Shown here: piece by piece, positions 9,540 to 49,699 of the stretch | How the letters are laid out: each line of letters starts with the position of its first letter | How positions within the stretch are numbered: the stretch's first letter is position 1 | NCBI GenBank assembly: GCA_950295325.1 | Contig: OX485803.1 | Coordinates: 76,957,554 to 77,021,553, forward strand | Reading direction: 5' to 3' | Length of the DNA: 64,000 nucleotides | From: Polytrichum commune | Lineage: Eukaryota; Streptophyta; Polytrichopsida; Polytrichales; Polytrichaceae | Program-made: the position numbers and the translations under genes | The notes under the pieces: generated by a model | Told to the model about the DNA's origin: nothing | What the model saw: the letters and a program-made list of their open reading frames with translations, nothing else | Databases searched by the model: none

Positions 9540-10232
9540 TTAGTCCCGGTTGGACCTAACAAAAAAGGGGATGCTACCGGCGTGGAGCACAAGCCTTCTA
9601 AGGTACGGCGCTAGAGTCTCGATCAAAAATGTGTCCTTCCTATCGCCGGTCCACGTTTCGGGAAAGATGACGTTTCCCGGGGGGTTCAAAACGCTCTTAG
9701 CGGGGCTGTCGTCGACGAGGAGGGTGTTCTCCGGAGTAGGCCACCACCCGTGGGGTGTCCCTTGCAGCCGGGGGACGCCGCGCCACAGTCTAGACCTGAG
9801 GACCTTCAGGAATTGCTGTCCTCCGCCACGACCGCCGAACTTCGGAACCGGCAGACCCTTTTCGTCGAGCAATTCATCGCAGTCCTCTTGCCCGAGGACT
9901 AGGCAAGGGCTCGGGAGATCACGGAATAGAAACTCGACGATGGGTTCAGTATTCTCCATGACCATGGAGCTCCACACAACGACGTGAGCTACGTCGAGCA
10001 CCTCGCGAAGGAAGTCACGCAGGCCAGGACGGGCGCGGACAGCCTTGCGGTTGATGAGGGTGTCGAGCTCTCCGTCGTAGTCCCTTTCGTCGGAGTGACG
10101 GAAGGGACGCGTGGGGACCCTGGGGATGTGTTGGGTGTGACACAACACCCCGTTGAGGTAAAACACGATGAACGGTTTGTTTCGGGTCTGAGGTACACTG
10201 GTTGAGGGGTTGCGACCTACCTCCGGGGGATC
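9540..10232 (-). CDS. Exon 4 of the split gene, FCP1/NIF-type HAD domain without nucleophile
   Basis: This follows acceptor GTTAATCACAG in the same phase-0 frame. The domain begins RNKPFIVFYLNGVLCHT and continues ARPGLRDFLREVLDVAHVVV with WSS, then ENTLLVDDSPAKSVLNP and ETWTGDRKDTFLIETLAPYL. Order and spacing match FCP1/NIF-like phosphatases of the HAD superfamily: the DxDx(T/V) motif, the hhhWS motif II and the DDSPxK motif III. The first motif here is YLNGV, so both catalytic Asp residues are gone (Tyr and Asn), while DDSPAK is kept. The family normally dephosphorylates Ser/Thr of proteins such as the RNA polymerase II tail. This version should be inactive and perhaps binds only. It ends SNRD and TAA. 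Confidence 0.72.
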   Translation of the reverse strand, partial: DPPEVGRNPSTSVPQTRNKPFIVFYLNGVLCHTQHIPRVPTRPFRHSDERDYDGELDTLINRKAVRARPGLRDFLREVLDVAHVVVWSSMVMENTEPIVEFLFRDLPSPCLVLGQEDCDELLDEKGLPVPKFGGRGGGQQFLKVLRSRLWRGVPRLQGTPHGWWPTPENTLLVDDSPAKSVLNPPGNVIFPETWTGDRKDTFLIETLAPYLRRLVLHAGSIPFFVRSNRD

Positions 10233-10876
10233 CTGTGATTAACAATTCGACTAGTTTAATGCTATGATCCAATAAAGAATTTTGCATCAAATATGAAGAC
10301 GATGCATTATGGAAAAATACTAAGGGCGAGAACAGGATTGTAAGGAGAATGTGCTGAAGGGCACATTTGCAAACGCTCGTTCGTGAATGAAGGCCAGAAA
10401 GTGGCGAGGTGCATAATTCATGAACGCTCGTTCGTGAAAGAAGGCCAGCAGTGACTAGGCGTACCATTCACTTACGAACGGTCGTTCGTGAAAAAGATAG
10501 ACGAGGGGTCGGATCCTTTTACGAGCGTCCGTTCGTAAACGAGGTTGAATTGCACAAGAAAGTGAACCCGCATGTACATACACAATACAAGGAATACGAT
10601 TTAATAAAAAGTGTGTGCGATTCGATGCAAAGCTCATTTCATTATATGAAATCCGTCAAAATTTACAGTTTCTCTCATGGTACACTATCACACAGGTTCC
10701 TAAGGCAACAGGATGCCGTGTCCTACAAAACTGATCGACATAAGGTCGTACACAAAATGGGCTCTCGCAGGGCTCGGATGTCGATGCAGACAATGCGCCA
10801 AAAACACAGCGAAGGTGGTTAGGAGGTTACGAACGCGCGTTCGTCAAAACAGGTGGCAATCTCAGAGATGAGTTAC
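10233..10876 (-). other. Intron 3 of the split gene, carrying five palindromes
   Basis: A 644-base intron, GTAACTC...AATCACAG, in phase 0. It holds palindrome copies at 10369, 10420, 10474, 10521 and 10829; the first four are 36 to 38 bases apart edge to edge. Confidence 0.6.
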
Positions 10877-11321
10877 CTCGTCATCGGAGGGAGCGGCAGC
10901 TCCCTCCTCAGTGATTAACGAACGCGCGTTCGTCACATCCACTGCCGCATGTGCCTCCATCTCCATAGGGTCGTCTGAACGCGCCGCCTGAGACGCCTGG
11001 GTCTGTTGTATGTCGTCGTCTTCAACACCCAGGTCGAGCGTCTCCATTCGCACATCCCCCATGTATGCGGGGGGATGTCGGTCTGTGGCGGGGCTATCAT
11101 CGACGTCCATCCTCTGGACCCCTGCCGTGTCACTCGGGCTCCCCTGCGTGTCCTCCACAATGAGCATGTCAGTGTGTCGCGCAGTGTCATCGCCCCTTGT
11201 CCTATCTACTATCCTGGGCACGACGGTGGAAGGTGCCGTGTCCGTCTGTGAAGGCAGTCCTACCGTTGGTGGGGGAGGGGTGAGGACCGTTTGACCTGAA
11301 GGTTCACGAACGCGCGTTCGT
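10369..11321. repeat. Palindrome cluster 1 (7 copies)
   Basis: Copies of the core ACGAACGNNCGTTCGT (16 bp) start at 10369 (one half degenerate), 10420, 10474, 10521, 10829, 10919 and 11306. Flanks tend to T/TT on the left and A/AA on the right. Five lie in intron 3 and two in the coding part of exon 3. Confidence 0.9.
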
Positions 11322-12099
11322 AAACCCTCATCCTCGCGGATGGCCGCCGAGACTGCATCGTGGATGTTGGCGGTGTCCGCGGCCATTGCAGAGGGTGGAG
11401 TCACCACCGGCGTTGGGTGGGGCGTTGGCTGGTATGACGGCCCTGCGGGGAAAGGAGCGTGCGTGGGGTATCCCGCAGGGAACGGGTACGCCGGCTGAGG
11501 GGCAACAGTGAAGTTCTGCAGCCTCGTCAGCATCGCCAGTATGGCATCCGTCTTCTCGTTTGAGGACTTCAGCTCCTCCTCAATTTTTCGCATTTTCCGA
11601 GCATTCTCCTCTGTAGCCGCCGCCATGTCCTCCTTCATCTTCTGCTCGAGCTTTGCGTTAAGCTCGGCGACGGAAAGGGCCTCCTCCTTGACCCTCTTGT
11701 TCTTGTCGAACTCCACCCCAAGCTCGACCATAATGTCAATGTCCCCCTCGTCCTCGTCGGAGACCTCGATGATCGCTCCCTCGGGCAACTCCACGTACGG
11801 GGTCTTCTTCATCCTCCGTCGCGTGTTGCGGAACAAGTCCAACGTGGGACGGGAGCGTTGGTCGAGGACATCGAGGGTCTCCATTTTGGGGACCACCGGC
11901 CTGGGCCGGGGGGACACCGATGTCGAACAACCGCCTGGCGTGCCGAAGGCCTCTGCGCCAGAGAATCGCGCGGGAAGCACATCGTGGGAGGCCCCCGCTG
12001 AGGACCCAGTACAACCACCTGGAGTCCCTTGGGGTTCCGACGGTTCCCGGGATGGGGCCAACATCCGGAGAGGAGTGACGTCCAAAGACTGGATGATGG
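10877..12099 (-). CDS. Exon 3 (3' part) of the split gene, coiled-coil linker
   Basis: This resumes from the X insertion (TSD GATGG at 12095-12099) as IQSLDVTPLRMLAPSREP. It contains GTPGGC twice, a basic patch RNTRRRMKK, and an acidic patch EVSDEDEGDIDIM. A clear coiled coil follows (ELNAKLEQKMKEDMAAATEE, then EELKSSNEKTDAILAML), then a long Pro/Thr-rich region with two further acidic stretches. Two of the 16-bp palindromes are translated in frame here: at 11306-11321 (giving LRTRVRE) and 10919-10934 (giving TNARSLIT). It ends at donor GAG|GTAACTC (intron starts 10876); otherwise a stop follows five codons on. It probably acts as a flexible linker or partner-binding region before the FCP1-like domain. 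Confidence 0.7.
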
Positions 12100-12143
12100 T
12101 GTAAGCCCAAATCCCCCTCACCCTTCGATTGCGTCCTAGTCCG

Positions 12144-13118
12144 TGTCGCAACCCTTGCTAGTCCCCCTTGCCAATCTTGCCAATTTTCAATTCTAGCAAA
12201 GGTTACGAGCGCTAACCATTCGCATTCCGCCATGCCAATGGTTAGCTCCTCCTACCCCGGACCATATAGTCCATAGGAGGGGAACCAACCCTCCTACTTT
12301 ACTTTCGGGACTCACCCCTTAATCGGTAACCAATTCCCAAATGTGGACTTCCATCCATGGAAGTCCAATCCTATGTTGATCATCGCGTTGCCGGAGCAAC
12401 GCTACAACAACCCGAACCATACTAGGCAACTATGGCCTCACATTGGGCCAATGCCCATGGAGGCCGTGCCGTTCGGCCTCGGGTGGGTGAGGCCACACCA
12501 CCTCACCCATATAAGCCTCTAGGACTCTACGCGGGGCCCCTACCCCACCGTCAACCAACCTCTTGTCTCTCTACCAAGAGTTGGGGCCAAGTGGACATTT
12601 TCCCTTAGCTGCTGGGCCTAGAACCCCCCCAGCAGCTTCAGACCATCATAACTTCCTTGTATGATGTCTGATCATAACAACCAACCACTCCATCTTCATC
12701 TACGCTTCACGTAGATGCCGATGCACTCCTCACTTGCCCCATTCGGGCAAGTGGTGAGGAAGTTATGCCTGTTTGAACCTTGGCAGTCCCGGGAATCACT
12801 CCCAGGCACTGCTGTACCAGGGCGCTGTCCCGGGACAGCGCCCCACTCAAATGGCCATAACTCCTAGCTCACACCTCCGATTGAGGTGTTCTTGAGCATT
12901 CTAGAATCACCACGCCATGAGCTACGCATAGCTCATGGCCTTACCCTTGTGCCTCCTAGTCTCCGTGGGTGGGAGGCGTTCCCAACGCCCGGGGCCCTCA
13001 CCCACACTAGGATCACTTGGGCCCTCTCACCAACGGCGCCACAAGTCCCGGGTGTCACTCCGGGGTCCCCCTTGTGCCCATGGTGTTTCGGGCACTCCTC
13101 ATGGAGAGGTGCGCGACA
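12144..13118 (-). repeat. 3' LTR of retrotransposon A
   Basis: Begins (minus) TGTCGCGCACCTCTCC and ends GGGTTGCGACA. It is nearly identical to 18075-19048. The open frames seen in it on either strand recur in every LTR of the family and are not genes. Confidence 0.92.
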
Positions 13119-13932
13119 CTCACCCCCACCAAACGGAGTCGATGCCCTCATCGACTATACTCGTAGTCGGCACACCAATTCTCAAGTTGCCATCCTCTAT
13201 GGTGCGGCATTGTGTTTACCTTAGGGCGCGACCCCCACAATGCATCTTCAAATTTGGCATAGTCCCAAAGGTGTCGTTCCTAGGTGGTCCGTTAGCGACT
13301 TTGGATCTCTCATCCAAGGACCTAACCTATACTAGACCCACCTACTTTGGGACTCACTTGGGTTGCCCCTCCTTTGGGGCCTCCCCCGTTAGGCTCCACT
13401 AGCCTAACGTGACACATCTAGGCGAGACCTCAACGCTTCCACTAAGTTGTCTCGGTTGCAACTCCGAGATGGCTTTCCATTGTTAAGCCACGCCTCGATC
13501 GCACGGGGGTGATGCCAAGTCCCGCCCGACTCGGTTCCCACTTTGCTCTTTCGAGACATGGGTTCATGACTCCCATGCGCCAACTCTCGTTAGCTCGCGG
13601 GTAGCACTTTTATGAGCACGCGCCATCACCTTGTCCCCGCCCGGACAAGCCCACAACTAAGAAGTTTCTTGGTTTTATCCAAGGCCCCTCCAAGCCATGG
13701 CCCCCAATTACTCGGCTTACCCAACCTAGTTTGGCATATCTATTCCCCCTCTTCCATTAACCAAGCACAAGTACAAGACTAGGACCTCATCTCATACTTT
13801 TCTCTTTGCACCACTAAAGTTTGGACTTTATTCCCTCAAGCCAAAGAACAAGTTCATGTTGTGGAGTAATTAACCTCGAAGCTAAGTGTGCTACTAGCGT
13901 CTCTCCCCCACTAAAGGAGATTGATGTCCTCA

Positions 13933-16924
13933 TCAATGCCTACGCTTCATTTTATTGGAATCCTTAGCCTTAGTTTCTTCAAAGTACTTCACCAATTCAT
14001 TGGTGTTCACCATGTCTCTTGCCGCCACCCAAGCGGTTTTTTTTTTCATGGTATCCTCACCATTTCACCAAGTACTCTTTTGTACATTTTCTTTCATTTT
14101 CACTTGGGCTTCCTACACTTGAGGGTGCCCTCCTACCTCATGTTCCAAATGGCCTCCACAAGGTCGGGACGTGGCCTAATCACTTGCTTGTGATCGGGCC
14201 ACAAGGTGTCGTCCTAAAATGACTTTCTTAATGAGACATGAAATGTCGGATGCACTTTGATCTCCGGCGGTAATTCCAACTTATACATGTCCTTGAACAC
14301 TTGTTCCACAATGGAAAACGAAGCTCCAATTTTGGACATGAACTTTTGCAGTAAGGCCTTTGGGCAAGGTGAAGTTGTCCACATTCAACAACACCTTATT
14401 GGCCCACCTCCTACTCCACTTCGCGTCTTCCGGCATTGATTTGCACTCCGTAGCACCTTCGGGTTTTTTCCACCAACAACTTGGTCATCTCCAAGACTTG
14501 TTTACCATCCTTGGCCAAGTCCTCACCATCTTGGTTGAACTCTAGTGTTGAATGTGCCCCCTCGAGAGCTAGGTTAATAGGTTGGAGCCCATCCACTCCA
14601 TAAGCCACCACGAAAGACCACCCCTTGGTAGCCAAGTGCGTGGCTACATTGCAATTACACTCCGCTCGACCCACATAGACCGCCCAATCTCCTTGGTCCG
14701 CCCCCACCAAGTTCCTCAAGTATTGCTTCAAGACTCCATTCACATGCTCCGCTTTCCCATTCATTTGGGAATGCAAGGCCGTGCTAAACCTTAGTTTCAT
14801 TCCGACCTCCTTAGAGAAATGCATTGAAAATGCACTTGTGAACTTTGGATCTTGATCCCACACAATCACTCTTGGCAACCCGTGGTGCCTCAACCATCCT
14901 TTGAGAAAAGGCTATGCGGTCTCCAACGCGGTGGCGGTTCCCACAATCGGCACCATGTGTGCCAACTTGGCAAACCGCTCTACCATCAACAAGATGGCAT
15001 CATACCCATGTGACTCCGGCAAACTTGTGATCAAGTCCATGCACATACTATGCCATGGCGCCGACGGGATAGGCAACAATTGCAAGAAACCGCATTGCTT
15101 TTGGTAAGAGGCTCGGTTCACTTGGCACTTTATTCACGCCTTCACAAAGTGGGCTATATCCTCCTTTATGCACCGCCAACGGTACCTCTTTGACACCATT
15201 CTATGGCGGCTTTTTGTTTCTCCTCTATGGCCGGCAATAGGACTATCATATTCTTCCTTCAAAACCGATAGCCTCAACTTGCCTTGTGGCACATACACCC
15301 AACTTTGCTTGCACTTGAACAATCCGTCCACCAACTTAACCTCTTTGAGCACCTTGCTCTTGCGAAGCTCACCTAAAAGCTTTTGTGCTTTGGGGTAGTT
15401 AATTTACCCCTCCCGTATCTTGCATCACAAGTTTCCTTTGCCGGCACACATTAGCCACAAGGTTTGGATGGTTCTCATTGCTTGGAACTCTTCCGGTCTA
15501 CTTCGCGCATCCGGCACCACATTTCCACGGTCCGGTTTGTGGATCAAATCCACCTTCATAAGCGCCAAACTATCATGCCACCGCAATGACTTGGCGCTCA
15601 CTTGCGCTTGTATGTCAAAATTCTCTTAGGACACATTGTCTATGTAGACCTTTGCTTTGTGCGACCTCAAATAGTGTCGCCACATTTTCAAGCAATGCAC
15701 TACGACAAAGAAGTTCTTTGTCATGAGTTGGTTGTCTTCTTTGACAACCATCGAGCTTCATGCTCCCATATACAATGGCCATCCAATTACACATAATCCA
15801 CCATTGGCAAAGTTATTCACCCCCATATGCACCTCAAAAGGTTTGTCAAGCTCCACGAACTTGAGCACGGGCGTCTAAGAACACTTGTTCTTAAGCTCCC
15901 CAAAGACTTGGTGGCAAGGCTCATCCCACTCTTGGGATAGCCATTTCTTTCACAAGTCGGATAAGGTCGGATAACCATCAAGCTTAACGCTCTCATGTGC
16001 ATTGGCCATCCATCTTACATTAACCATCCGCCAATGGCAAAGTCACTCGCCCCCCCGTATGCACCTCAAAAGGTTTGTCAAGCTCCGCGAACTTGAACAC
16101 GGGTGGCAAAGACAACTTTGTATTAAGCTCCCCAAAGACTTTGGGGCAAGGCTCATCCCACTCTTGAGATAGCCATTTCTTTCACAAGTCGCACAAGGTT
16201 TGACAATCTTTAAGCTTAATGCTCCCATAAGCAATGGTCATCCATCTTGGATCAACATCCGCCAATGGTAAAGTCACTTGCCCCCGTATGCACCTCAAAA
16301 GGTTTGTCAAAGTCCGCGAACTTAAGCACGGGCGGCGAGTAGAACTTGCTTTTGAGCTCCCCAAAGGCTTGGTGACAAGGCTCATCCCACTCTTGGGATA
16401 ACCATTTTTCAACAAGTTGACTAAGGTCCTAGCAACCTTAGAAAAACCTCCAATGAAGTGGTGGTAGTAGTTGGCTAGGCCAACAAATGACCTAAGCCCT
16501 TTTTTTGAGTCAAGCGCCAATTCTCCTCTTGGATTGCCTTGACATACTTCATGTTCGTCCACCAACTTCATTTGTCACCACATACCTCAAGAACTCAATC
16601 TCTCGTTGAGCAAAGTTGTTATTCCTCCTTGGCGGTAACCTTTTGAGCAACACATTGGTGAATACATCCTTGTATCTCACCAACATCCCACCAATGTGGT
16701 TTGGAGGAGGCCCATCTTTCCTAGCCTCCCCATACGTTCCTTGGAGTTGCTCCAATTGAACCACGACCATTATGTTTTCCATTTTTCATTTGGTCCATTA
16801 AGACCAAATTCAACTTGGGTCCTCCTACCATAGGAGTCCTTGTCAATTTAAACTTCAATTCTTTGCCAATATGACACATCATAATGCACCGCAAGCACAC
16901 CGGCTTGCACCTCACATCTATCAT
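13933..16924 (-). pseudogene. pol remnant of A: RT core missing, integrase, chromodomain
   Basis: Reading minus: LVRYKDVFTNVLLKRLPPRR near 16640 is the run-in to a Ty3/gypsy reverse transcriptase. The next recognisable residues, EIEFLRYVV near 16590, normally lie some 170 residues later. The palm with its YxDD site is therefore deleted. Then come LRSFVGLANYYHHFIGGFSK and three tandem copies of the RT/RNase H junction. Integrase (15121-14411) has SMCMDLITSLP, VWDQDPKFTSAFS and GKAEHVNGVL, so the D, D and E positions are recognisable, but a TAG stop lies after TALETA. The chromodomain near 14070 (EYLVKW, stop TGA, GYH) also has a stop. Both stops recur in copies B and C. Confidence 0.82.
15790..16420 (-). 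repeat. Tandem array of the RT/RNase H junction in A (3 units of ~230 bp)
   Basis: Each unit encodes WLSQEWDEPCHKAFG, then FDKPFEVHTGASDFAIGG and an IAYxSxKL ending, i.e. the start of RNase H, repeated head to tail. Units can be counted by CACCTCAAAAGGTTTGTCA at about 15830, 16061 and 16289. Confidence 0.85.
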
Positions 16925-17223
16925 GTGAGTTTCAAAGAAGGCGCCTTCACAATGACATGCATTTCATCTATTTCATATGGTGTGAAATTTTGACAAAAAT
17001 CCAATGTCCCACATTGAAAGGTTACATGCATCGCGGCCTACTTTGTTTCATGCGGTTCGCCCTTTCCACACCGCACCTTGGTGGGCTTGCCCGCTCTATC
17101 AATCGGCAAGCCCCAACTCCCTTGTGAGTTTTGGGCTCAAGAAGGCATGGCTTGCATCTTTGTCAACCCCTTAGACGTTTGTCCCATTCATTTCAGCCTC
17201 GAGGTATAAAATACTTGGCCTTG

Positions 17224-18010
17224 GCTAAAGGCTACTAGCCTTGGCCACAAAGCCATCGTGTAACATTTGGTCCTCGGCAACACCATGAGTTTGGCTTGGT
17301 CCGCAAGGCCAACTTTTAACACTCCGTCCGTGGAACAAATATGATCTAGCTTGGTACCACCAAGCCACCTTCTCACATTCCGTCCGCGGCACGAGCTAGC
17401 ATGATTTGCCTTGGTATAATGGGCCAAACTACTTGTGCTCATTTCCTTGGGACATCTTTCGGCTAAACCCACTTTGTGGTGATATGCCGCCCAACTTCTT
17501 TTTAGGACCATCGGCTTCAATGCTCTTCAAATCTTTATGATTCGCACTACGTCCTCAAGAAGCTTTGGGGTCTTGAACATGGTTTTCACCACCCGCTTTT
17601 GAAACCCACCTAAAACGATGCATTTCTTAGAAAGCTCGTCCATCCTAGATGTACCATTCATTTGGGTGTGAAATTCGCACATATACACCTTAAGAGACCC
17701 CGCGTGCCTCATGTGCCCCAAGTTCATTTCAACATCACCACCTTCTAAGCATTTCGAATTGGAATTTCAATCCAACATTAATGCCCTCCAAGGTTTTGGG
17801 TGCTTTCGGTATTCTAGGCCCCAAATGTTTTTTGAGGTTTGAGGGAGCCCTTTCAAAGCACTCCTCCATTTTCCTTACCAAATCCACCCTCATGCCCACC
17901 ATTGTCATTAGAACCAATGGTATGGTCAAATTCCACTTGCACATGATCCTTGTTCCAATTTGAGCCTCACAACCTTTTGGAAACCCCGGGCTCACCATCA
18001 TAACCCGCAT
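17224..18010 (-). pseudogene. gag/protease remnant of A, with short tandem array
   Basis: Broken frames follow the primer site. The first (18010-17735) begins MRVMMVSPGFPKGCEAQIGT and a relic protease-like segment follows. At about 17230-17420 a ~58-bp unit with the motif TCCGNGG (CCGCGGA on the coding strand) is repeated about three times. Gag identity rests mainly on position next to the primer site. Confidence 0.5.
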
Positions 18011-18060
18011 TTTTTATAGCCATGTTTCCCTCAAAGTGCGAGCTCAAAACTTGGAACCCT

Positions 18061-18072
18061 GCTCTGATACCA
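18061..18072 (-). other. tRNA primer-binding site of A
   Basis: On the minus strand TGGTATCAGAGC, two bases after the end of the 5' LTR. It is complementary to the 3' end of plant initiator-Met tRNA. Confidence 0.9.
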
Positions 18073-18074
18073 AG

Positions 18075-19048
18075 TGTCGCAACCCTTGCTAGTCCCCCTT
18101 GCCAATCTTGCCAATTTTCAATTCTAGCAAAGGTTACGAGCGCTAACCATTCGCATTCCGCCATGCCAATGGTTAGCTCCTCCTACCCCGGACCATATAG
18201 TCCATAGGAGGGGAACCAACCCTCCTACTTTACTTTCGGGACTCACCCCTTAATCGGTAACCAATTCCCAAATGTGGACTTCCATCCATGGAAGTCCAAT
18301 CCTATGTTGATCATCGCGTTGCCGGAGCAACGCTACAACAACCCGAACCATACTAGGCAACTATGGCCTCACATTGGGCCAATGCCCATGGAGGCCGTGC
18401 CGTTCGGCCTCGGGTGGGTGAGGCCACACCACCTCACCCATATAAGCCTCTAGGACTCTACGCGGGGCCCCTACCCCACCGTCAACCAACCTCTTGTCTC
18501 TCTACCAAGAGTTGGGGCCAAGTGGACATTTTCCCTTAGCTGCTGGGCCTAGAGCCCCCCAGCAGCTTCAGACCATCATAACTTCCTTGTATGATGTCTG
18601 ATCATAACAACCAACCACTCCATCTTCATCTACGCTTCACGTAGATGCCGATGCACTCCTCACTTGCCCCATTCGGGCAAGTGGTGAGGAAGTTATGCCT
18701 GTTTGAACCTTGGCAGTCCCGGGAATCACTCCCAGGCACTGCTGTACCAGGGCGCTGTCCCGGGACAGCGCCCCACTCAAATGGCCATAACTCCTAGCTC
18801 ACACCTCCGATTGAGGTGTTCTTGAGCATTCTAGAATCACCACGCCATGAGCTACGCATAGCTCATGGCCTTACCCTTGTGCCTCCTAGTCTCCGTGGGT
18901 GGGAGGCGTTCCCAACGCCCGGGGCCCTCACCCACACTAGGATCACTTGGGCCCTCTCACCAACGGCGCCACAAGTCCCGGGTGTCACTCCGGGGTCCCC
19001 CTTGTGCCCATGGTGTTTCGGGCACTCCTCATGGAGAGGTGCGCGACA
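18075..19048 (-). repeat. 5' LTR of retrotransposon A
   Basis: Partner of 12144-13118; minus-strand ends are TGTCGCGCACC and TTGCGACA. It adjoins the primer site. Confidence 0.92.
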
Positions 19049-19053
19049 CTCCG

Positions 19054-21589: not shown

Positions 21590-21811
21590 GCCAAGTCATG
21601 TCTCCTCGGTTGGTTGAGGGAGGAAATTTGTACAACACTTAAGCGGTCCGGGTTCGATTCCCATAGACTCCGTTTGACTGTTTAAGGTGTTATACATGAC
21701 TTGGTGCTGCTAGTGATTTCTAGGTAGGAAATTAGTACCCAACCAACCGGCTCTTACCCATCCTCCTGAGCTATCCGTGTAAATATCATTCAATAAATAA
21801 CGGTCATCGTC
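21590..21811 (+). mobile_element. Possible tRNA-derived SINE
   Basis: A box-A-like stretch TCGGTTGGTTGAGG near 21610 is followed about 30 bases later by an exact box B, GGTTCGATTCC (near 21650). A tRNA-unrelated tail then ends near CTATCCGTGTAAATATCATT. The acceptor stem does not pair, so it is not a functional tRNA. No target duplication was established. Confidence 0.42.
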
Positions 21812-22070
21812 ATGACCCCTTCCCTTATTCTATTGGTTTTTCTTGGTCCTTTTGCGTATGTTTTTACTAGAAACGTTTATGCCTTATTCCCCTTTAATCC
21901 CCTACGGTTAATTTCTCTCCAAGTTCCTAATCACTTTTTTAGCCTAATTCCACCGGGATATTTAACACCTTACCTTTCCCATCACCTGCTAGTTCTATCA
22001 AGTATGAAATCGACGTGTTAGCCATGTTTTTGCGATTAAGGATTAATGTGAGTACGATTTTGGGCTCACA

Positions 22071-22271
22071 GATGGCATCGACGTTGACGGATGGGCCAGG
22101 CTCATCGTCGTCTGTTTCCATGGGTGGCATGCCTTCGTCGGTCGGCATGTTGAAGTCCGTCATGGGCACGGACATGTCACCCAGGTCCATCGTCGACGCT
22201 TTTGTCCTGTGGAACTTGTAGTCTTCCTCGTCGACGGCGTCAACATATGTATTGACGCACAACCCCAGCAT
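22071..22271 (-). CDS. Exon 3 (5' part) of the split gene
   Basis: This follows acceptor CTTCTTTTCTCAG and opens MLGLCVNTYVDAVDEEDYKF. That completes the methyltransferase-like motif: after the FGGSK loop one expects ALRLGR..I.IE.D..YF, and the C-terminal Asp-Glu-Glu-Asp-Tyr pattern fits. It then becomes acidic and Pro/Met-rich (MPPMETDDDEPGPSVNVDAI). Insertion X cuts it at GATGG; the frame resumes at 12094 with IQSLDVTPLRML. Confidence 0.7.
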
Positions 22272-22302
22272 CTGAGAAAAGAAGGCAAAGAGTCAGTCAT
22301 AT

Positions 22303-22435
22303 ACGAACGCACGTTCGTGAACATGAACCCTTTGAGCGAAGCAATAATAACAAATTAATTCACAAATGATTAAAACGTATCAGTTGCCTAAGAGTAATTG
22401 TTTGGAGCATGCAGTGATTACGAACGTGCGTTCGT
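22303..22435. repeat. Palindrome pair in intron 2 of the split gene
   Basis: ACGAACGCACGTTCGT at 22303-22318 and ACGAACGTGCGTTCGT at 22420-22435, both in the 187-base intron 22272-22458 (GTAAGC...TTTTCTCAG). Confidence 0.9.
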
Positions 22436-22458
22436 AAAAGTGCTCTGAGATGGCTTAC

Positions 22459-23784
22459 CATAGCCGCGTACATAAATTTGCTGCCCCCGAAGACGTTGTA
22501 GACAGTCTCGCCATTCATCGCCAAACCCTGCAATATGGACACGTAAAACTCCATCCTCAACTCGAGCGCCGGGTAGACAGTGAAGAGCGTCTCCTGGAAG
22601 ATGTCCTTCGGAGGGGGGTGAGGGATATTGTAGATCTTCTTGAACGTGTTGATCGCCTTGATGGGTGTTTGCCCATTCCTCAGCGCATTGTACGTCAAGA
22701 AGATGAGGCTCACCGCTCCCACCTATTTGTTGCCTCTCGCCTCGTTTATGGCAACAATCCCCTCCATCTTCGCAGGCACGTATGTGCTGTGGAAGATGTT
22801 GTACTCGAACTTGATTTGGTTCTCGTACAAATCGGTGACGACGGATAGCTTCTCCGTCTCCACAATCCACAGCCATACGTGCGGCTCCCTCATTGTTGGC
22901 GATTTGTGCTCCATGAATTTCGCCATGAAGGGGTTATAAAAAGGCTCCCCCTTCGCCCCCTGTTTGTAAGCACCCGGGATCCCCCTGAAATCGATGACCG
23001 CAAAGGGACAACCCCTTCGGTCCTCCCTGATATCGGCCCTGCTGATGGTGCCATCCCACTTGGAAAAAGTGGTCCTCTCGAGACCCGTTGTGACCACACA
23101 AAATCTTGCGACGCCCTCGAATGTGGCGTTCATCTTCCTCTCCAAGAAGGAGACGTACCGCTGAATCTCTTCAGGTTCAGTTTCTGTTTTTTTCGCTCTT
23201 TTGTTCCCCTTGAGCTTCAGCACGGCGACGTGTTCCTTCACAAGACTCCGCATCGAGGCACCGTTGATGTTGTACTGAGCCTTGAACTCCTTCCATTTTG
23301 CCCAGTTGACATCGCCATCGGCTTGGAAGAGGTGCATCCCAGGCAGTAGTCCACTGATCTCCCGCATGGCAGCGGTCTTCAGCTTCCTGTGATCGCACCA
23401 CTCCTTTATTGAGTATGTGCCGGGCTTGTCCTTCGGTCTCCTCAAAAATATTTTGGGATAAGGGATCGTCCTTCCCACGGTGTTACCAAGGAGGTGCACC
23501 GCACACCGTTGCAACTCTGACTCGGTCAGTCCTTGGAGGGGCCTGAAAAATTCTCTAAGTAGAGGAGGGGCCTCGCCGGTCTTGTCGTTGCTGTACTTCT
23601 CCTCAGTGTCGGGGTTCACTACGTCGCCTGAGCTGTGAGCGTCGAAGAACTGGGTCCACAAATCCCAGGTTTCTCTGTTGCAGCAAATCAGCCGAAGCTC
23701 ACCTTTGAGCTCCAGAACTGATTTTGTGCTCGTGGACTTCATGTCGATGGAGGTAAACTTGTCGACCATCGCATCACAAAACGC
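22459..23784 (-). CDS. Exon 2 of the split gene, DNA methyltransferase-like region
   Basis: This starts after acceptor TGTATGTTGCAG with AFCDAMVDKFTSI and runs 442 codons. One in-frame TAG sits at 22723-22725, after EARGNK, and the reading continues naturally (VGAVSLIFLTYNALRNGQ). The second half follows the order seen in N4/N6-type DNA methyltransferases. CPFAVIDFRGIPG is where a DPPY-type catalytic motif would sit, but degenerate. Later come YPALELRMEFYVSIL (the HPTQKP-like helix) and GETVYNVFGGSKFMYAAM (the SAM-binding DPFxGSGT-like motif). The exon ends at donor ATG|GTAAGC. The MTase reading is my motif-based inference; catalytic and SAM-binding residues appear partly lost. Bacterial and phage ParB-MTase fusions are known, which makes the arrangement plausible. 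Confidence 0.6.
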
Positions 23785-23825
23785 CTGCAACATACAATGA
23801 AGAATGTCAGTGTTTCGTATCAAAC

Positions 23826-23899
23826 ACGAACGCACGTTCGTAAGTTGACAACTTTAGAAATATGTGAATACAACTTATACTTTACGAACGCGCGTTCGT
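23826..23899. repeat. Palindrome pair in intron 1 of the split gene
   Basis: ACGAACGCACGTTCGT at 23826-23841 and ACGAACGCGCGTTCGT at 23884-23899, both in the 123-base intron 23785-23907 (GTGAGTT...GTTGCAG). The second starts eight bases from the donor. Confidence 0.9.
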
Positions 23900-23907
23900 G
23901 AACTCAC

Positions 23908-24012
23908 CTTCCACTGTGGGGATTGGGTCTTCGCGTTCTCCCTCTCTTTAGGCGGGCACCCGTGCGCTACCCAGACGTCTCTTGCCGCCACTATATTCGC
24001 CGCCCAGGAGGC
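23908..24012 (-). CDS. Exon 1 (3' part) of the split gene
   Basis: This resumes directly where 29991 stops. Without Y and one GAGGC copy, the frame passes from KIKAFEAS into WAANIVAARDVWVAHGCPPK and ends QSPQWK at a perfect donor, AAG|GTGAGTT (intron starts 23907). The upstream open frame beyond 24013 lies in Y and is not part of the gene. The segment continues the ParB-like region; runs of LNxxNK...W..NI..AR.VW are typical of that part of the domain in DGQHS proteins as I remember them. Confidence 0.72.
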
Positions 24013-24489
24013 TGTCACCAAAAAGCCTCCACCCTTCAATTTCGTCCTAGCCCGAATGGAGAAGTTTATAATGACATGTAGAGATTTCTCTCTTTGTAAC
24101 ACAATGTATGATTCCAATCTATCGTTGGAATATACGCAACTTAGCCAAGTCTATACTATGTCTTCTTACACTCCTTAATCTCGGGTAATGTCACATCCTT
24201 GTATTTCTCTAAAGTCCACCCGGCCGCTTTGGCCACGCATGCCTTCAAAGATATCCCTCGTGTGAATCGAGTCCTCGCCGTTGATTCCACACTACTGCAC
24301 GAATCTTCGCTTGTTGATTCCATGAAACACATAAGTTTAAGTATTAACAAATACTTGTGTAACTTATGGTGGCCTCTCCTTTACAGGCCTTCACATTCCA
24401 TTACTAAGTTCAACCTCAATGGTCAATCACCAATACATTCAAAAGTTACACACATCCCTTCCTGTGGGAGTCCAAATTCGACGGAAATA

Positions 24490-24520
24490 CGGAAATACGG
24501 AAATACGGATTCAATTTCCG
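24490..24520 (+). repeat. Short GGAAATAC repeat
   Basis: Four GGAAATACGGA-like units in tandem (ACGGAAATACGGAAATACGG), followed by the inverted form TTTCCGTATTT. A small hairpin-prone repeat of no known role. Confidence 0.6.
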
Positions 24521-25129
24521 TATTTTACCTTGCTTATCTGAGGATAATAGGGTCTATTAGGACAAAATTAATGGTACTAGGAAATAGAGTAGTCTAACCC
24601 CGCCTTGTGCGGTAAAACGACTCTAAATAAGTACTATGACCGGTCCGTCAAATAGGATGGGCGGACCATGCAATCATGGTCCAAACCCTTGGTCCGGACC
24701 AAGTGACGGCCGCGCCAAGATTACCCAACGGCCCGGAAGTGGCGGTTACAACGGGCCTTATGGCGGTTGGGGGAAAAGAGAGCCGTTGGTGAAAATGTTA
24801 GTAAAACCGTTGGTGGGAACCGCCGGAAAACGGTTGGTAACCGTTTTCCGTTAAACCGAACGGTAACAGGGGAAGGAAGAGGGAGGAAGGAGATTTAAGG
24901 GTCCCTTCCTTCTCCCTCACACTCTTTTCTGGAAAAAGGCAACCTGTTGAGAGAACGAGTGGTGAGGTGTTCCTTCTTTCGAGCCGCCAGCAGTTGGATT
25001 GCTGGGACTCAGCACTTTTCAGTCACCGGCAGTGGGCTTGCCGGGACTTTGTGGCACTTAGACGGAAGAGAAGGACTCCGGAAGAGAGAGGGAGAGGTTG
25101 CAAGCCAGAAAGGGTGAGAAGAGAGGAAA

Positions 25130-27202
25130 ATGCCGGAAGCACGGGAAGAGGATCAGCGGGAACCCATCCCGATTCCGCTGAAAGCCCTCACCCCTGCAAT
25201 TCCGAGGGAGGATAGAGAGCTGCAGGAGCTCGCGGAGGATCTTAGGGTCATGGGTTGTGCGGGATTGCTCTCCAAACCCTGGAATCTCAGAGCGGAAGAT
25301 ACCCTCCGCGAGTTTAAATTCGAGAGGGGAAATCAGTGGCTAGGCACAAAGAGGAGGGATCCGGAACATTGGACTCCGGATACGTGGAACAGGGTCTACG
25401 GGTTTCCCAGGGGAATCACGGAGGGGTGGGCCGGCCGCCGCGACGGCCTGTTCGCCGGGAAATTCAGAGGGGACGCGGATCCAAAGGACGGGTTTCACCC
25501 AGGGAACTGCCGGAATATTAGGGAGCGGAGAGTGCTAGAGTTTCTCCTGCCCATTCTCAATCCGGACAAGCCGAAGCGGATTAGCCTCACCATGGCTAAC
25601 ACGCTGTTTGGTGCAATGTCCGGAGTCCGGCCGGTGAATTGGGGCCTGATCATCCAGGAGATAGTCGGACGGGCCCTCCCCCATATTGGCCGGAAACCCT
25701 CCTTCCTCTCCCCCTTCATTTTGCACCTCTACCAGCATTTCGACTGCATCACGGCAGAGGAGGAGGACCTGCTCACAATAGCGGCGGATGAGGTCACCTA
25801 CAAGCTGCTCCCGGAAGCCGGAGACGTCGAGACGGAGACCTCCAGCGACCCTATTCTTCCGGAAGCACCTCCCTCGTCACCCGGAAGCCCGCCACCAACC
25901 GTCTCGAGGCCACTCTCTCCCCCTCCCCCGCACCAACATCCGGAAGCCGGACCCAGCCGGGAGACCCCATGGCGAAATGTGGACCTATCCGCTTGGGACT
26001 TCCCGGAGAATCCATTCAAGCGGTTCCAGGAGGGGATGGAGGACCTCAAGACCCAGTACTACCGACTGGAGCACATCGTCAAGGGGGCGAACCATGCTCT
26101 GGACGACTGCGGACCCGGAAACATTCTCCGGGAATTGGCAAAGAGGGCGGACCGGAAGGAGCTGGAGCAGGCCAAGACGGAGAACGCCCACCTCACCGCA
26201 CAGGTAGCGGCTATGACCCAGGAGCTGAGTCAGAAGAGTGAGGAGATCCGGAAGTATCATGCGGAGCAGGCAGTGCTCTTCAGCCGAATCCGGGAGCTGG
26301 TGGGTCATCCGGCGGAGATCGTGAACAAGGCACATCTCTACGACCGGATGATGGAGTCATGAGAACCGGCTTCCGCCAGGCAGACCCTCCCCATCCTCGT
26401 GAAGTACTCACGGACGATGAAGGATCTCCTGGCGGAAATCCAGAGGGTGGTCCCGCCAAGCGGAACACCGCGGAGAGTGCTCTATCCGGGTCCGCCAGGG
26501 TCACCAACCGGGACCCTCTACGAGGTGGTTGGTGAAGTAGCCCTGGTTCAGAATCCGCCGGCCTCTGCCGGACCCAGCCAGCAAGGAGGCGGCTCTCGGC
26601 CTGGTCATTCCGGAGGGGCTCCGGAAAGGGTCCATTCTCCCCAGGTGAGGCGGAAGAGCACCGGGTCGGTCCGATCCGGAAGGGGCCAGTCCCCTGTTCC
26701 GCGGAACTCGGATAGGTCCCGGACTCCGGATAGGGCTCGGACGCCTATCCGGCACCAGACTTCCGATCGGGAGGCCACTCCGAGTAGGGGCAAGGCTCCT
26801 ATGACCCACGCCTCGCCATCGTCTCCACGGGACTGCCAAGTGGTGAGTCCATTCCCTCCGCCACACTCGAGAGCGGCCTCCAACAGGGATCCGCGGACGG
26901 CTTCACTCTCGGGTGGACGGAATCCGGAGCAAGGCACCGGAAGCGATCCTTCTCCAGTCCGAAGCATCCGGATGGGGACAGCTTCCGGAACCCCAGGGAC
27001 AGTCTCCGGGACACCAGGGACCGCTACCCCACGGACCGAGAGGGCAGCGGATTCGGAGGACGAGGTTGCTCCGTCTCCGAACATGAGGAGGATGCTCACG
27101 CGGCTGCAGAAGGCGTCGCCGGCCGGGGGCTCATCCGCCGTCAGCGGATTAGGGAGTCGCTCCAAGGAGGGATCGGCTCCGAAGAAGCACCGGTCTTCTT
27201 AA
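25130..27202 (+). pseudogene. Transposon-associated ORF with coiled coil, one in-frame TGA
   Basis: Two open segments in the same frame (25130-26362 and 26363-27202) are separated by a single TGA after YDRMMES, and the reading continues EPASARQTLPILVKYSRTMK. Residues about 1-240 look globular (MANTLFGAMSGVRPVNWGLI, FLSPFILHLYQHFDCITAEE). A Pro-rich linker follows (about 245-300), then a strong coiled coil (about 340-395: KELEQAKTENAHLTAQVAAM). The part after the TGA is Ser/Arg/Pro-rich (RSRTPDRARTPIRHQTSDRE). It resembles a gag-like or transposon structural protein in layout, but I do not recognise the family. The TGA could be a CGA-to-TGA mutation or a programmed readthrough site. Codon use and high GC differ from the surrounding DNA, and TCCGGA is very frequent around it. 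Confidence 0.5.
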
Positions 27203-28640
27203 TTAGGGGAGTGGCTAGATTGATTGGGCAGAAGGGAGGTAGGCAGGTAGGACTTAGGAGTTTTTGAAGACGATTAATAAAATTTTCCTTTGATAGTGTC
27301 AGCGGAAAACCCGGATCTAGATCCGAGAAATCCGGGAGACCGGGGGTAGTTAGGGTTTTCTTGAGCGGCGGCCGCCTGGGCCGCCGCCCTCAGTTTAGGG
27401 ATTTTTGAGCCTCTACTTAAGGCTGAATAAGGAGCTTGGGGGGGGGTTCCCTCTCCATTGTTATATTGTGGTTATTCCTACCCCGAATAAATGTCTTTGC
27501 TTCTCACCCCTTGACTTCTCTTGATTGCTGTGTGTGTGAATGACCCGGAGATCGTTAGTGGAAGAGAAAGGGAGGGCATGAAGGATAGGAGTTCCGGATA
27601 GGACATGAGAGAGGAGACCCGGATCAGATCCGGTTACCGCCTTGTAGATCCTCTCTGAGTGTAGTGGGAGGGAAACCTCACTAATCCGGTAGGTTGGGTA
27701 ACGTCTAGGTGGGATAGCCGCTGGGAAGATTGGGTGAGATCCGGAAGGAATCCGGACTTACGCCAATCTGATCTTCTGAAGAGGTCCCACCGTCCTTAGA
27801 CGGACCTGCCCGGATTAGTGGTACGGATCGCCTAGTTATCTCAGATTGAGTAGAATCCAAGGTAAAGGTAGCCGGACAGATCCGTCGGACGGAGAAGGAG
27901 AGGTCCGGATCAGTAAGGATTCCGATAGGAGGCCACCTCCGGAGTGCAGTAGGAAGAGATCCTCGTTGTTCCGAATGCCTGGGTACCGTCCATATGAGAT
28001 AGCCGTCGTTAGGACTGGGCAAGATCCGGAAGGTGCCGGACTTACGCCATCCGACCTTCTGAAGAGGTCTCACAGTCTTTGGTCGGGGTAATCCGGAAAG
28101 TGGTACGGGTCACCTACTCATCCCGTCGAGTTAGATCTCCGGTTGGAATCCGGACTCCTCTGGCCACTTTGGTCCCAAGAAACAATCCAGATCTCTCTGC
28201 GTGACCTGCTAGGACGGACCTGATCAATCCGGATTGGTTGTGAGGGAGTTTCCGGATTCTAACCTTATCAAGGACGTCTTCACCGGAAGAAACCAATCAT
28301 TCTAGAGAGTAGACGTAAAGGGGTGGGTAAGTATTATAAAGAGGACCTAGAAATAACATCCGGAGAGGTACCCTCCGGAAAAAAGGCTAAGAATGTCCCC
28401 AAAGACCAAATATCCGGAAATTAGGATTTCCGGAAATTTGGCTAAGGAAGAAGAAATGAGCAGGTACGGAGAATTTTAAGACCTCCTACACTTCACAGAA
28501 TCCCTGGACGATACTAAGGTCACCCGGAAATATCCGGACTTGGCACAAAAAACCCGCCAATCCGGAACTTTTGGTGTTTGTGGGTTCCCACACTTCCTAC
28601 TTAATGAATCCAACACTTTAAGTCTAAACATCATAAGTCA
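27203..28640 (+). other. 3' non-coding region of the Y-internal element
   Basis: GC-rich, with TCCGGA motifs throughout. AATAAA-type signals occur at about 27268 and 27486. Two diverged direct copies of ~140 bp (27705-27845 and 27985-28125) share AGATCCGGAAGG, CCGGACTTACGCCA and CTTCTGAAGAGGTC. Confidence 0.5.
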
Positions 28641-28660
28641 AAAACTATAAGAGTGTGTCA

Positions 28661-29345
28661 CTAGTTTTTGGAAGTTTGGACATAGTCTCGGTTTTTTGGC
28701 TCTCAAAAATTCATATGAAGGCCAAAAAATGAGTTCTTGGTATCCATGGATAGGTAATGAAGTCTTCTACATGAATATGTAATAATATTTCTACTGCCAC
28801 AAAGTATATGGTTGCAATTCTACGCTGTTCCCTTTGAATCTGCACTTTTTTTCACTAGTTTTTGGAAGTTTGGACATAGTCTCGGTTTTTTGGCTCTCAA
28901 AAATTCATATGAAGGCCAAAAAATGAGTTCTTGGTATCCATGGATAGGTAATGAAGTCTTCTACATGAATATGTAATAATATTTCTACTGCCACAAAGTA
29001 TATGGTTGCAATTCTACGCTGTTCCCTTTGAATCTGCACTTTTTTTCACTAGTTTTTGGAAGTTTGGACATAGTCTCGGTTTTTTGGCTCTCAAAAATTC
29101 ATATGAAGTCCAAAAAATGAGTTCTTGGTATCCATGGATAGGTAATGAAGTCCTCTACATGAATATGCAATAATATTTCTACTGCCACAAAGTATATAGT
29201 CGCAATTCTACGCTGTTCCCTTTGAACCTACACTTTTTCACTAGTTTTTGGAAGTTTGGACATAGTCTCGGTTTTTTGGCTCTCAAAAATTCATATGAAG
29301 TCCAAAAAATGAGTTCTTGTTATCCATGGATAGGTAATGAAGTCC
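28661..29345 (+). repeat. 194-bp tandem array (3.5 units)
   Basis: Units start CTAGTTTTTGGAAGTTTGGA at 28661, 28855, 29049 and 29241; the last is truncated after GGATAGGTAATGAAGTCCT. Units are about 98% alike. Monomer size is satellite-like, but the array is small and lies within insertion Y. Confidence 0.9.
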
Positions 29346-29990
29346 TACAAAACTAAATGCTCCAATAAAAGACTTTGCACATCCGCATAAGTATAAGGCT
29401 AATCAATGTAAATCCAAGTTTTCAAACAAAGCCATAAATTGAACTTTAAATCATTCACGCCCAACTATTACTAACAAGAGGTCAAGCCCTCTTCAAGGCC
29501 AACTAGCCTTGGCTCCTAACCTTACATCCATGCACATACACGTGCTCCTATCTTGCTTCCCACGCACCGACACTTATAACACGTGGAGTGCCAAGGAGCA
29601 CGAAGGAAAGAGAGGATGAGTGAGGGAAGAATGAGGGATTATATAGTGAGCTTGAGGGGGTGAGCACCCTCAAGGCTCACGATAAGCCCTCGAGATTTCC
29701 TCCTACTTTGTAGGCTCTAATCCTATCTCCTAAGCCTTCCTCCCTCAAATGATCAACAAGGATCCTAATTCAAACATTTAACTAACCTTGGTTTTCTACC
29801 TACCACACTTTACCAAGGTTTGTCCTTCTCCTACTTAAATCCACTCCACAAAAGCCTAATGCTTCAAACTAAGCTTTCTTCAAGCTTCACTCTTTTTATA
29901 TTTTTGTGAATAACCATAAATCACCAAAACACCACTTGTAATGCTTTACAAGTGTTAACAACCAATGTGGGCATCAATTTTGGGCTCACA

Positions 29991-31186
29991 GAGGCCTCGA
30001 ATGCCTTGATCTTGTTCCCATAATTCAAAAATGTGGATATCTTGCGCAGCTTGTCCCAGTCGTCAGACCACACCAAAAAAACCTTCCAGTAGCGCAAGTC
30101 CGTTTTGAGCTCGTGCTGGAAGTTATCATCTTTGAGGATCATTTGTGATGCCTCCAGGCTGTGTTGTCCATCGATTATCGAAAATTCTCCATTCTCGATT
30201 CTTGGCCAATCCTTCTTAGTGGGGCGCGACAAAAAACCCTTGGGCATCACGCAGACGGTCTGCCTATCTCACTTGACATTGTTCATCAGGTTATTAATCT
30301 GCCACTTTACGCCTCCGCTTTCACGAGACCTCACCACCCACTTGTTCGGGGATTTCTCGCACTTGAAACAGTCCACGTTGAAAGTGAAGTGGCGTCCCAT
30401 AGGCCAGCAATCCTTGGAGTAGTTGTTGAAGTCTCGAAGGATTTTTGTCGCTTTCGCCGCGTCTGGATTTTCTCCCTTCTTCAAAGGGGTCGGCATCAGT
30501 GGCGGAGAACTCACCTCAGCGCCTTCCGTCACTCCAGACTTCTCCATATCCTCCCTTGATCTCTTGGATGGAGTTGAGTGTCTGCTGGGCCCTTCGGTCC
30601 CCCTGCTACCCGAAGGCACAGGCCGCGGAGCACTTCTCGATCCTCCGGCCCCCGAAGCAGATGGTTTTCTTGGACTTTTCTTTTTTTTATTTGCCTCCGC
30701 GGCAACACTGTTGAACTTCGAAATATTCAAGGTCAGGGCTGTCAACTTCCTCGCCGTCCAATGTTGACTTAGGGCATATTTAGTGAAGAGAGCATCCAGG
30801 TTGAAATGCTTCGCATCGGATGCGACATTATGGCATGCATACGCGTAGGAGAATGGGTGCAATAGGTAGTTCAAAAGGAGGTTGATATGGTCTTTTTTAT
30901 TTTTCATGTCCAGAATAACAAAATCTCCTTGTGCCTCCACAGACTCTATCTCCCAATTCTTTGTCTGCACCCATTGGTCTGGTTGATCAGCCCTTGTCTG
31001 CAGCTCATAAGTGAATCGCAATGCAAACAACCCTTCCTCGGTATTCGTGGGGATTGCTGTCCACTCATCCATGACTTCTTCTTTTGGGACATAGGTGTCG
31101 TTCCCATTCGTATCCGAGACACCTTCTGGGAGGCGCTCCACTGGCACTGCGAACAAGTCGATCGCGTTTCGGCTAGCCTTAGCCAT
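29991..31186 (-). CDS. Exon 1 (5' part) of the split gene, with ParB/DGQHR-like motif
   Basis: The ATG at 31186 follows TTTTGTGTGATGCAG, which could be an acceptor; an in-frame ATG at 31192 is the alternative start. Residues 1-165 are a mixed alpha/beta-looking region (MAKASRNAIDLF to LNISKF). Residues about 170-250 are basic and Ser/Pro-rich (KKKKSPRKPS, SKRSREDMEK), probably disordered and nuclear. A cysteine pair, CFKCEK, follows near residue 283. After an in-frame TGA at 30269-30271 the same frame continues with PRIENGEFSIIDGQHSLEAS (DGQHS near residue 338), then YWKVFLVWSDDW and STFLNYGNKIKAFEAS. That is the core of ParB/DGQHR-type domains, where DGQHR binds nucleotide or phosphate. In that family the last Arg is usual; here it is Ser. 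Insertion Y cuts the exon after GAGGC CTC. Confidence 0.72.
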
Positions 31187-31220
31187 CTGCATCACACAAA
31201 AGCAAATCAGAATTGGCTTT

Positions 31221-31727
31221 ACGAACGTTCGTTCGTAAACACCGTGCCATGCAGATTATTTTCATAGTTTGGTTTTGGACATACGAAGTTTTGAATGCTA
31301 TATGCATTTCAGGGATCGTTTCAAATACATTCACATTGGTTCACATCTTTTACGAACGCGCGTTCATAATTGGAGATGCCTTGTTATTAGTATTTTGTAC
31401 ATAACTATACGAACGTGCGTTCGTAAAGTAATGCGATATATTGGAAGCTACTGAGGTAGATTTGGTGTCGTGATTGGTTTTAGGGACTTATATGAATTAC
31501 AGCATGGATATAACCTATTTTGGAGGAAGGGTTTCGAACGCACGTTCGTAAACGTAGTCCTTGGGATCCAAAGAGCCTTTACGAATGCGCGTTCGTAAAA
31601 GGTGTATATGATGCGCGGCACATGTATTTACGAACGCGCGTTCGTAAACAGGGTGTATATTATGCACGTCACATGCATTTACGAACGCGCGTTCGTAAAA
31701 AGGGTGTATATACGAACGCGCGTTCGT
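31221..31727. repeat. Palindrome cluster 2, upstream of the split gene (8 copies)
   Basis: Copies of ACGAACGNNCGTTCGT start at 31221, 31352 (one end mutated), 31409, 31534 (first base changed), 31581, 31630, 31681 and 31712. The last five are spaced 31 to 51 bases. They lie directly 5' of the start at 31186, in promoter or 5' leader position. Centres vary (CG, TG, TT, CA). Most have TTT before and AAA after the core. Confidence 0.92.
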
Positions 31728-31870
31728 AAATGAGCCTGTTGTTTGTTTTTATATATTATTATTATTATATCCGTACATATACGGATACGTATATATACGA
31801 ATTCGTATACATACGTATGGCAAGGGGTTGCTTGCTGTGTCTCAGGAAAGCTTGCACTCGTGCCTGCAAG

Positions 31871-32842: not shown

Positions 32843-32844
32843 CG

Positions 32845-32856
32845 TGGTATCAGAGC
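32845..32856 (+). other. tRNA primer-binding site of B
   Basis: TGGTATCAGAGC two bases after the 5' LTR; matches the initiator-Met tRNA primer used by many plant LTR elements. Confidence 0.92.
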
Positions 32857-32892
32857 AGGGTTCCAATATTTGAGCTAGCACTTTGAGGTAGA

Positions 32893-48640: not shown

Positions 48641-48659
48641 AACCCCAACTCCCTTGTGA

Positions 48660-49650: not shown

Positions 49651-49685
49651 TTCCCTCAAAGTGCGAGCTCAAAACTTGGAACCCT

Positions 49686-49697: not shown

Positions 49698-49699
49698 AG

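Follow-up and report, generated by a model that had tools for sequence, protein, structure and literature searches.

The stretch of Polytrichum commune DNA considered here, a window of 64,000 nucleotides (GenBank assembly GCA_950295325.1, contig OX485803.1, positions 76,957,554 to 77,021,553 of the forward strand), contains a decayed DNA transposon at positions 8032-53997 of the window. The first-pass annotation, made from the sequence alone, had recognized a long interrupted protein-coding gene in this region and had missed the transposon, of which that gene is an accessory gene. On balance, we lean slightly towards reading the whole as a Sola-like element with a ParB-like/FCP1 accessory protein that would recognize the element's own palindromes and relieve its silencing.

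The element is marked by a 16-bp palindrome, ACGAACGNNCGTTCGT, which, allowing up to two mismatches, occurs at 31 sites against 0.06 expected, and whose wider consensus is TTTACGAACGNNCGTTCGTAAA. Nineteen of these sites lie between the two genes of the element, nine in the introns of the accessory gene (954 bp in all), two in an exon, and one, a weak site at 9114, downstream of the accessory gene. The palindromes are confined to the element's own DNA: within the window, none was found in the 30.4 kb of nested insertions or in the 18.0 kb of flanking sequence. Their middle two bases vary (CG in 12 sites, TG in five, CA in four and others in 10) and the four outer CpGs are nearly invariant, a constancy that is suggestive at most, because the search pattern itself fixes the arms.

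The boundaries of the element are given by terminal inverted repeats of 28 bp, identical at 27 of 28 positions and enclosing both genes, with a 4-bp target copy outside each. Their local alignment score of 52 compares with a maximum of 30 among 300 shuffles of the left side; a second control, with random pairs of windows, scored 52 or above in 17 of 300 cases and is uninformative, as repeats in the window score high. No further match to the terminal repeats occurs in the window even with up to 8 mismatches, and a reading of the ends as CACTA-type with a 3-bp target copy was rejected, the 4-bp reading fitting exactly. Without its four insertions (X, Y, B and C; Table 1) the element measures 15,556 bp, including an AT-rich stretch of about 3 kb (39.07-42.0 kb). 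Its second gene is divergent from the accessory gene and codes for a DUF7869 protein, which on sequence grounds is likely to be the transposase; a change of frame near 52.06 kb in this gene is either a short intron or a frameshift, and the name DUF7869 occurs in no paper of the literature searched. A description of the Sola superfamily gives a 4-bp target copy, terminal inverted repeats of 11-1124 bp and sizes mostly of 2-9 kb, with some above 15 kb, and reports Sola elements in the moss Physcomitrella (PMC10741241). The target copy TTAG, whose length equals that stated there for Sola, the 28-bp ends and the size of the present element all fall within this description. We accordingly call it Sola-like by target copy, ends and size, and claim no membership of Sola. 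One point weighs against our reading as a whole: a PDB search with the DUF7869 protein gave nothing useful.

The accessory gene had been described as a single gene hidden under two nested insertions, here X and Y, and this is borne out by the frame, the splice sites, the target copies and relatives that are contiguous over Y. Once X and Y are taken out with one target copy each, six minus-strand segments join into 1,577 codons and a stop, with two in-frame stops at codons 306 and 786, and the three introns (123, 187 and 644 bp) all have GT-AG ends and are all of phase 0. The accompanying statement that every exon is a multiple of three needs a qualification: it holds singly for the other segments, but for the pair split by Y (1,196 and 100 bp) only once they are joined. 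The reading is contiguous at the Y point in all 37 aligned first-exon relatives (37 of 42, five shorter ones being excluded), and each of the 37 has a residue at the position of the first stop. At the second stop, 28 of the 29 relatives in alignment A1 read on and the remaining one, P0022, terminates precisely there. Another relative, P0080 (863 aa), reads through the predicted junction without intron 1 and thereby supports the join. For intron 2, insertion X and intron 3, the joins are predicted from frame, splice sites and target copies, no relative covering them having been found. The absence of an ATG before the first catalytic motif of the last segment makes a separate gene less likely there than an exon. 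The linker segment preceding it is acidic and helical, as judged by eye; a HAUS-augmin3 match of the linker exon in Pfam, below cutoff, was taken as coiled-coil noise.

A ParB-like domain had been named as one part of the protein, with reference to domains of the DGQHR type, and a box of that type is present in the ParB exon. It reads DGQH in 38 of 42 relatives, with three of the remaining four stopping short of it, and the form DGQHR was found in none of the 39 relatives checked. In profile comparisons, the ParB-like PHROG family phrog_1033 is matched by 14 of 39 relatives (best E 0.0013), DUF6551 by 10 of 37 (best E 0.012) and the DGQHR model by one of 39 (E 0.5). Alignment of A4 by hhalign with ten ParB-like proteins gave a probability of 92.7 and an E-value of 4.1e-7 across 70 columns surrounding the box (0.46 and 0.56 in reversed controls), a result that overstates the case because these templates, nine from phages and one from an archaeal virus, were picked with a typed consensus containing the DGQH box. 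Taken singly, they gave E-values from 2.3e-6 to 0.6, five below 0.01 and five of 0.02-0.6. Several results count against a ParB affinity. Three ParB-annotated phage neighbors not picked in this way gave E 0.25-0.73, and two aligned jointly gave 0.62 and no match; a phage ParB-methylase likewise gave no match by hhalign (E 0.28); a PDB profile search returned nothing; and the match rests mainly on about 20-40 residues at the DGQH box. L006 and L024 were excluded from the comparisons. We call the ParB-like domain probable because of the conservation of the box, the profile matches and a precedent in Ectocarpus taken up below; no classic DNA-binding domain was identified here.

At the other end of the protein, the assignment of the last exon to the FCP1/NIF family of HAD phosphatases is well supported by Pfam (PF03031, E 6.4e-14, 52.4 bits against a gathering cutoff of 21.8). 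Its PDB neighbors are RNA polymerase II-type phosphatases, with weak E-values. Known FCP1-type members are phosphatases of RNA polymerase II, and an action of the present domain on that enzyme would be a guess by analogy. Two observations weigh against our reading here: the first catalytic motif reads YLNGV in this copy, departing from the DxDx(T/V) usual for FCP1/NIF proteins, and within the family the NIF domain is known from this one copy alone. The copy in this window is dead, since its two stops, its altered catalytic motif and the four insertions leave it non-functional.

The family to which this dead copy belongs extends well beyond the window. The 442-codon exon as query retrieved 57 relatives and the ParB exon of P0057 gave 42 matches, P0057 itself among them, for a total of 98 proteins (P0001-P0098). 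Nearly all are single exons, and a search with the full-length protein found nothing. When each is assigned by its best BLAST hit among five reference proteins, the 98 form three clades with 51, 36 and 11 members. A viral origin was rejected, as IMG/VR yielded no relatives of either exon in two alignment scans and none in one pattern scan, and the introns are GT-AG; bacterial contamination was rejected after one scan of GTDB contigs with the ParB alignment that found no relatives, although scans of both kinds depend on a short conserved stretch and distant relatives may escape them. A tblastn search of phage records revealed no relative of the protein family, and viral contigs searched for paired palindromes had none. 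Because the IMG/VR and GTDB scans found no relatives, we regard the family as probably eukaryotic, multi-copy and long-conserved.

The relatives also bear on the palindromes, for their open frames often extend into introns and there encode the site, which in the version of the window reads in three frames as TNxRS, RTxVR and YERxFV. In stretches assigned by pattern as lying outside exons, clade 1 has 16 instances of TNxRS and 18 of ERxFV, and clade 2 has seven of TDxRP and three of YGRxSV, which imply ACGGACGNNCGTCCGT, as well as three of RPxGR, which imply another two-arm variant. The remaining frame, RTxVR (21 in clade 1 and six in clade 2), is uninformative because it is compatible with both site types. 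Across whole proteins (n = 98), the A-type tag occurs in 25, all of clade 1, and the G-type tag in 11, all of clade 2. In clade 3, strings such as VWVDRPK, VSGDRPK and VWAGRPK, read by eye near the intron start in eight of the 11 proteins, look as if they encoded a third palindrome. The site thus appears to differ in sequence between clades, with both arms changing together. On the other side of the ledger, the sites of the relatives are deduced from peptides and not read as DNA, 62 of the 98 proteins have neither diagnostic tag, one-arm changes occur in P0008 (clade 1) and P0025 (clade 2), and the clade difference may amount to perhaps two or three evolutionary events only.

We consider the accessory protein most likely to be self-recognizing and probably anti-silencing. 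Under the mechanism proposed here, the accessory gene would move with the DUF7869 putative transposase, transcribed in the opposite direction, and its product, as a dimer, would recognize ACGAACGNNCGTTCGT in the introns of the element and between its genes. It would load at these palindromes in a ParB-like manner, and the loading would mark the element so that it withstands silencing by the host and is transcribed again, the phosphatase part perhaps assisting by acting on RNA polymerase II. We infer the binding of the palindrome from sequence patterns and both the anti-silencing and phosphatase roles by analogy. Only tentatively do we suggest a eukaryotic self-recognition comparable to ParB-parS, in which the ParB-FCP1 protein would load on its own palindromes, with which it would have co-changed, and would lift silencing of the element only, via chromatin or RNA polymerase II.

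In other DNA transposons, proteins of the element are known to bind short dispersed repeats, and here the DUF7869 gene is immediately preceded by 11 of the 31 sites. The palindromes might instead be sites of the DUF7869 transposase, in the manner of subterminal repeats, with the ParB-FCP1 protein acting otherwise, for instance by guarding transposition intermediates. We think this unlikely: the sites cluster in the introns of the ParB gene and between the genes, the 400 bp next to the right end are free of them, and the 1.5 kb next to the left end contain a single one, with two mismatches.

The joint change of both arms fits a site read by a dimer, yet pairing within a hairpin would give the same pattern. 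The palindromes could therefore be RNA or DNA hairpins, aiding, for example, the splicing of the small introns, with the arms co-changing to preserve pairing. Their perfect dyad would fold, introns 1 and 2 carry two sites apiece, and compensated arms would likewise yield the clade pattern. However, 19 of the 31 sites lie between genes and two in an exon, and pairing needs no fixed sequence, whereas members of one clade mostly carry similar tags; we regard the hairpin explanation as improbable.

We give the same low weight to an active self-methylating protein, a true N4/N6 DNA methyltransferase that would mark the element as has been proposed for algal elements, the Ectocarpus element furnishing a precedent (PMC12477816, available in part). 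The label of methyltransferase that the 442-codon domain had received is not supported: motif IV in the form [DNS]PP[YFW] (DPPY-type) is absent from all 57 relatives, some of them partial, none of 36 relatives has a Pfam methylase match, comparison with PDB sequences did not establish a methylase, and full-length methylase profiles do no better on the real segment than on shuffles, which they score higher. What speaks for a methylase is a resemblance to its motif I, noted by eye between the end of this exon and the start of the following one. A motif-I-like GG[ST]K string is present in 31 of 36 relatives; hhalign, unprompted, aligns the exon end in register with methylase motif I at E 0.07 (reversed controls 0.95 and 0.92); and under a motif-I profile this region is the top-scoring stretch of the entire protein. 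However, the same hhalign comparison with a larger methylase set gave E 0.19, a reversed query against an unrelated ParB set reached E 0.066, similar to the methylase value, and, under the motif-I profile, 248 of 5000 shuffled versions of the motif region reach an equally good score. The domain may be a dead methyltransferase; if it ever was a methylase, its catalytic motif has since been lost.

Finally, an ordinary host gene lying by chance between unrelated transposon ends, a reading to which the phase-0 splicing and the eukaryotic phosphatase domain would lend support, is very improbable in light of the exact 4-bp target copy and the ends alike at 27 of 28 positions that enclose the gene, its many diverged copies on various contigs, the palindromes common to gene and intergenic region, and the published ParB-methyltransferase gene lying opposite a transposase in another element (PMC12477816, in the part available).

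Table 1. Coordinates, in the window, of the transposon, its two genes and the insertions nested in it (LTR, long terminal repeat)
Feature	Position	Strand	Basis
Target-site copy TTAG, left	8028..8031		same as 53998-54001
Left terminal inverted repeat, 28 bp	8032..8059	+	27/28 against right end
Last exon: FCP1/NIF HAD-phosphatase domain and stop codon	9540..10232	-	Pfam PF03031 match
Intron 3, 5 palindrome sites	10233..10876	-	GT-AG, phase 0
Linker exon, continuing across X; 2 palindrome sites	10877..12094	-	frame and target copy
Insertion X, LTR-type ends	12100..22070	-	target copy CCATC on both sides
LTR retrotransposon A, nested in X	about 12143-19051		LTRs 99.8% alike
Linker exon, first part	22071..22271	-	frame
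Intron 2, 2 palindrome sites	22272..22458	-	GT-AG, phase 0
Conserved 442-codon domain exon (first-pass annotation: methyltransferase-like), one in-frame stop	22459..23784	-	57 relatives
Intron 1, 2 palindrome sites	23785..23907	-	GT-AG, phase 0; missing from P0080
3' end of ParB exon	23908..24007	-	joined frame
Insertion Y, LTR-type ends	24013..29990	-	target copy GCCTC on both sides; none of 37 aligned relatives has Y
ParB exon from ATG, with DGQH box, one in-frame stop	29991..31186	-	joined frame; ParB-like matches
Between-gene region, 8 palindrome sites	31187..31870		pattern count
LTR retrotransposon B, between the two genes	31871..39064	not decisive (-)	LTRs 97.2% alike; GCAAG at 31866-31870 and 39065-39069
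Tandem duplication, two units about 90% alike, 10 palindrome sites	42081..42849		repeat comparison
Palindrome array, 11 sites, upstream of DUF7869 gene	42096..43050		pattern count
DUF7869 gene start (putative transposase)	43216..43435	+	open frame resumes after insertion C
LTR retrotransposon C, within DUF7869 gene	43436..50682	not decisive (+)	LTRs 99.9% alike; target copy GGGAG
DUF7869 gene, remainder	50688..53600	+	Pfam PF25273, E 2.3e-40
Right terminal inverted repeat	53970..53997	-	27/28 against left end
Target-site copy TTAG, right	53998..54001		same as 8028-8031

Among the nested sequences, retrotransposons A, B and C share an internal repeat array, made of units of about 229-232 bp in varying copy number (15740-16407, 34536-35463 and 47047-47998), and on its plus strand insertion Y holds two open frames of 414 and 279 aa (25118-27202), neither with a Pfam match above cutoff. 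The AT-rich stretch at 39070-42080, between B and the palindrome array (GC 0.33 at 40-42 kb), may be another insertion; within it, at 41152-41185 between the genes, is a short stretch of the plant-type telomere repeat CCCTAAA. Downstream of the accessory gene, 8402-9487 is GC-rich with overlapping minus-strand open frames, the longest of which has no Pfam match. Outside the element, a downstream neighbor at 54526-62606, with a plus-strand NAM-associated gene (PF14303) and a minus-strand gene matching Plant_tran (E 1.8e-88) and DDE_Tnp_4, is likely to be a PIF/Harbinger element. The CCCTAAA repeats and the Plant_tran and NAM-associated domains of this neighbor are our grounds for calling the host plant-like.

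ParB-methyltransferase accessory proteins have been described in transposons of brown, green and red algae, with the proposal that they bind the transposon that encodes them and modify it epigenetically, and in Sola1-1_Ec32 of Ectocarpus the ParB-methyltransferase gene lies opposite the transposase (PMC12477816, in the text available). The present element is like these in its ParB-like domain, in an accessory gene opposite the transposase and in being a large DNA transposon; it differs from what the available text describes in that the methylase catalytic motif is absent, the protein carries a fused FCP1/NIF domain, the host is plant-like and a palindrome array is described. Hence, the impression of the first-pass annotation that such a protein had not been met before has to give way as regards ParB-methyltransferase accessory proteins, while the addition of FCP1 and the plant-like host appear to be new. 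As far as our searches show, the novelty lies in the FCP1 fusion, the plant-like host and the 31 element-confined copies of the palindrome; the literature searches, mostly without subscription journals, found no FCP1 fusion or clade-specific palindromes in such elements.

The layout seen in this window, with a motif confined to the element, placed in introns and upstream regions and accompanied by a tandem duplication, resembles that of the VANC systems of VANDAL elements in Arabidopsis; VANC is not known to be a ParB protein. The motifs of VANC proteins lie in tandem repeats, in introns and in upstream regions, and protein and motif co-evolve (PMC5735166). In both cases, according to the parts of these sources available, a short motif in introns and upstream regions has spread by tandem duplication and differs among related elements (PMC5735166; PMC10398659). 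The VANC21 motif, YAGTATTAY, is not a perfect palindrome (PMC5735166), unlike the site described here, and binding and loss of methylation have been experimentally proven for VANC, whereas here the case is one of sequence analogy.

Bacterial systems offer a second comparison. VirB, a relative of ParB, counters silencing in Shigella, and, in the available part of that account, ParB-parS and VirB combine a ParB-type box with palindromic sites, as does the present element, in which the box is DGQH and not DGQHR (PMC10653881). Phage proteins that join ParB to a methylase (e.g. L025, from a Terrisporobacter phage) have the same order, with the ParB domain followed by the methylase; they keep intact DPPY and motif I, unlike the family here, to which hhalign gave E 0.28 and 0.17 and no detectable match. 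Fungal DNA transposons with TET/JBP dioxygenases provide a third, with an accessory gene likewise thought to aid escape from methylation-based silencing, via another enzyme and in other hosts (PMC12730594, available in part).

The element supplies a concrete candidate site for the proposed self-binding accessory proteins, and the natural variation of both protein and site among related clades makes self-recognition testable by cross-binding. If the proposed self-recognition is true, sequence-specific anti-silencing, as known from VANDAL elements, would have been reached a second time by an unrelated route, and a ParB-type domain would be in use beside parS-like palindromes in a eukaryote.

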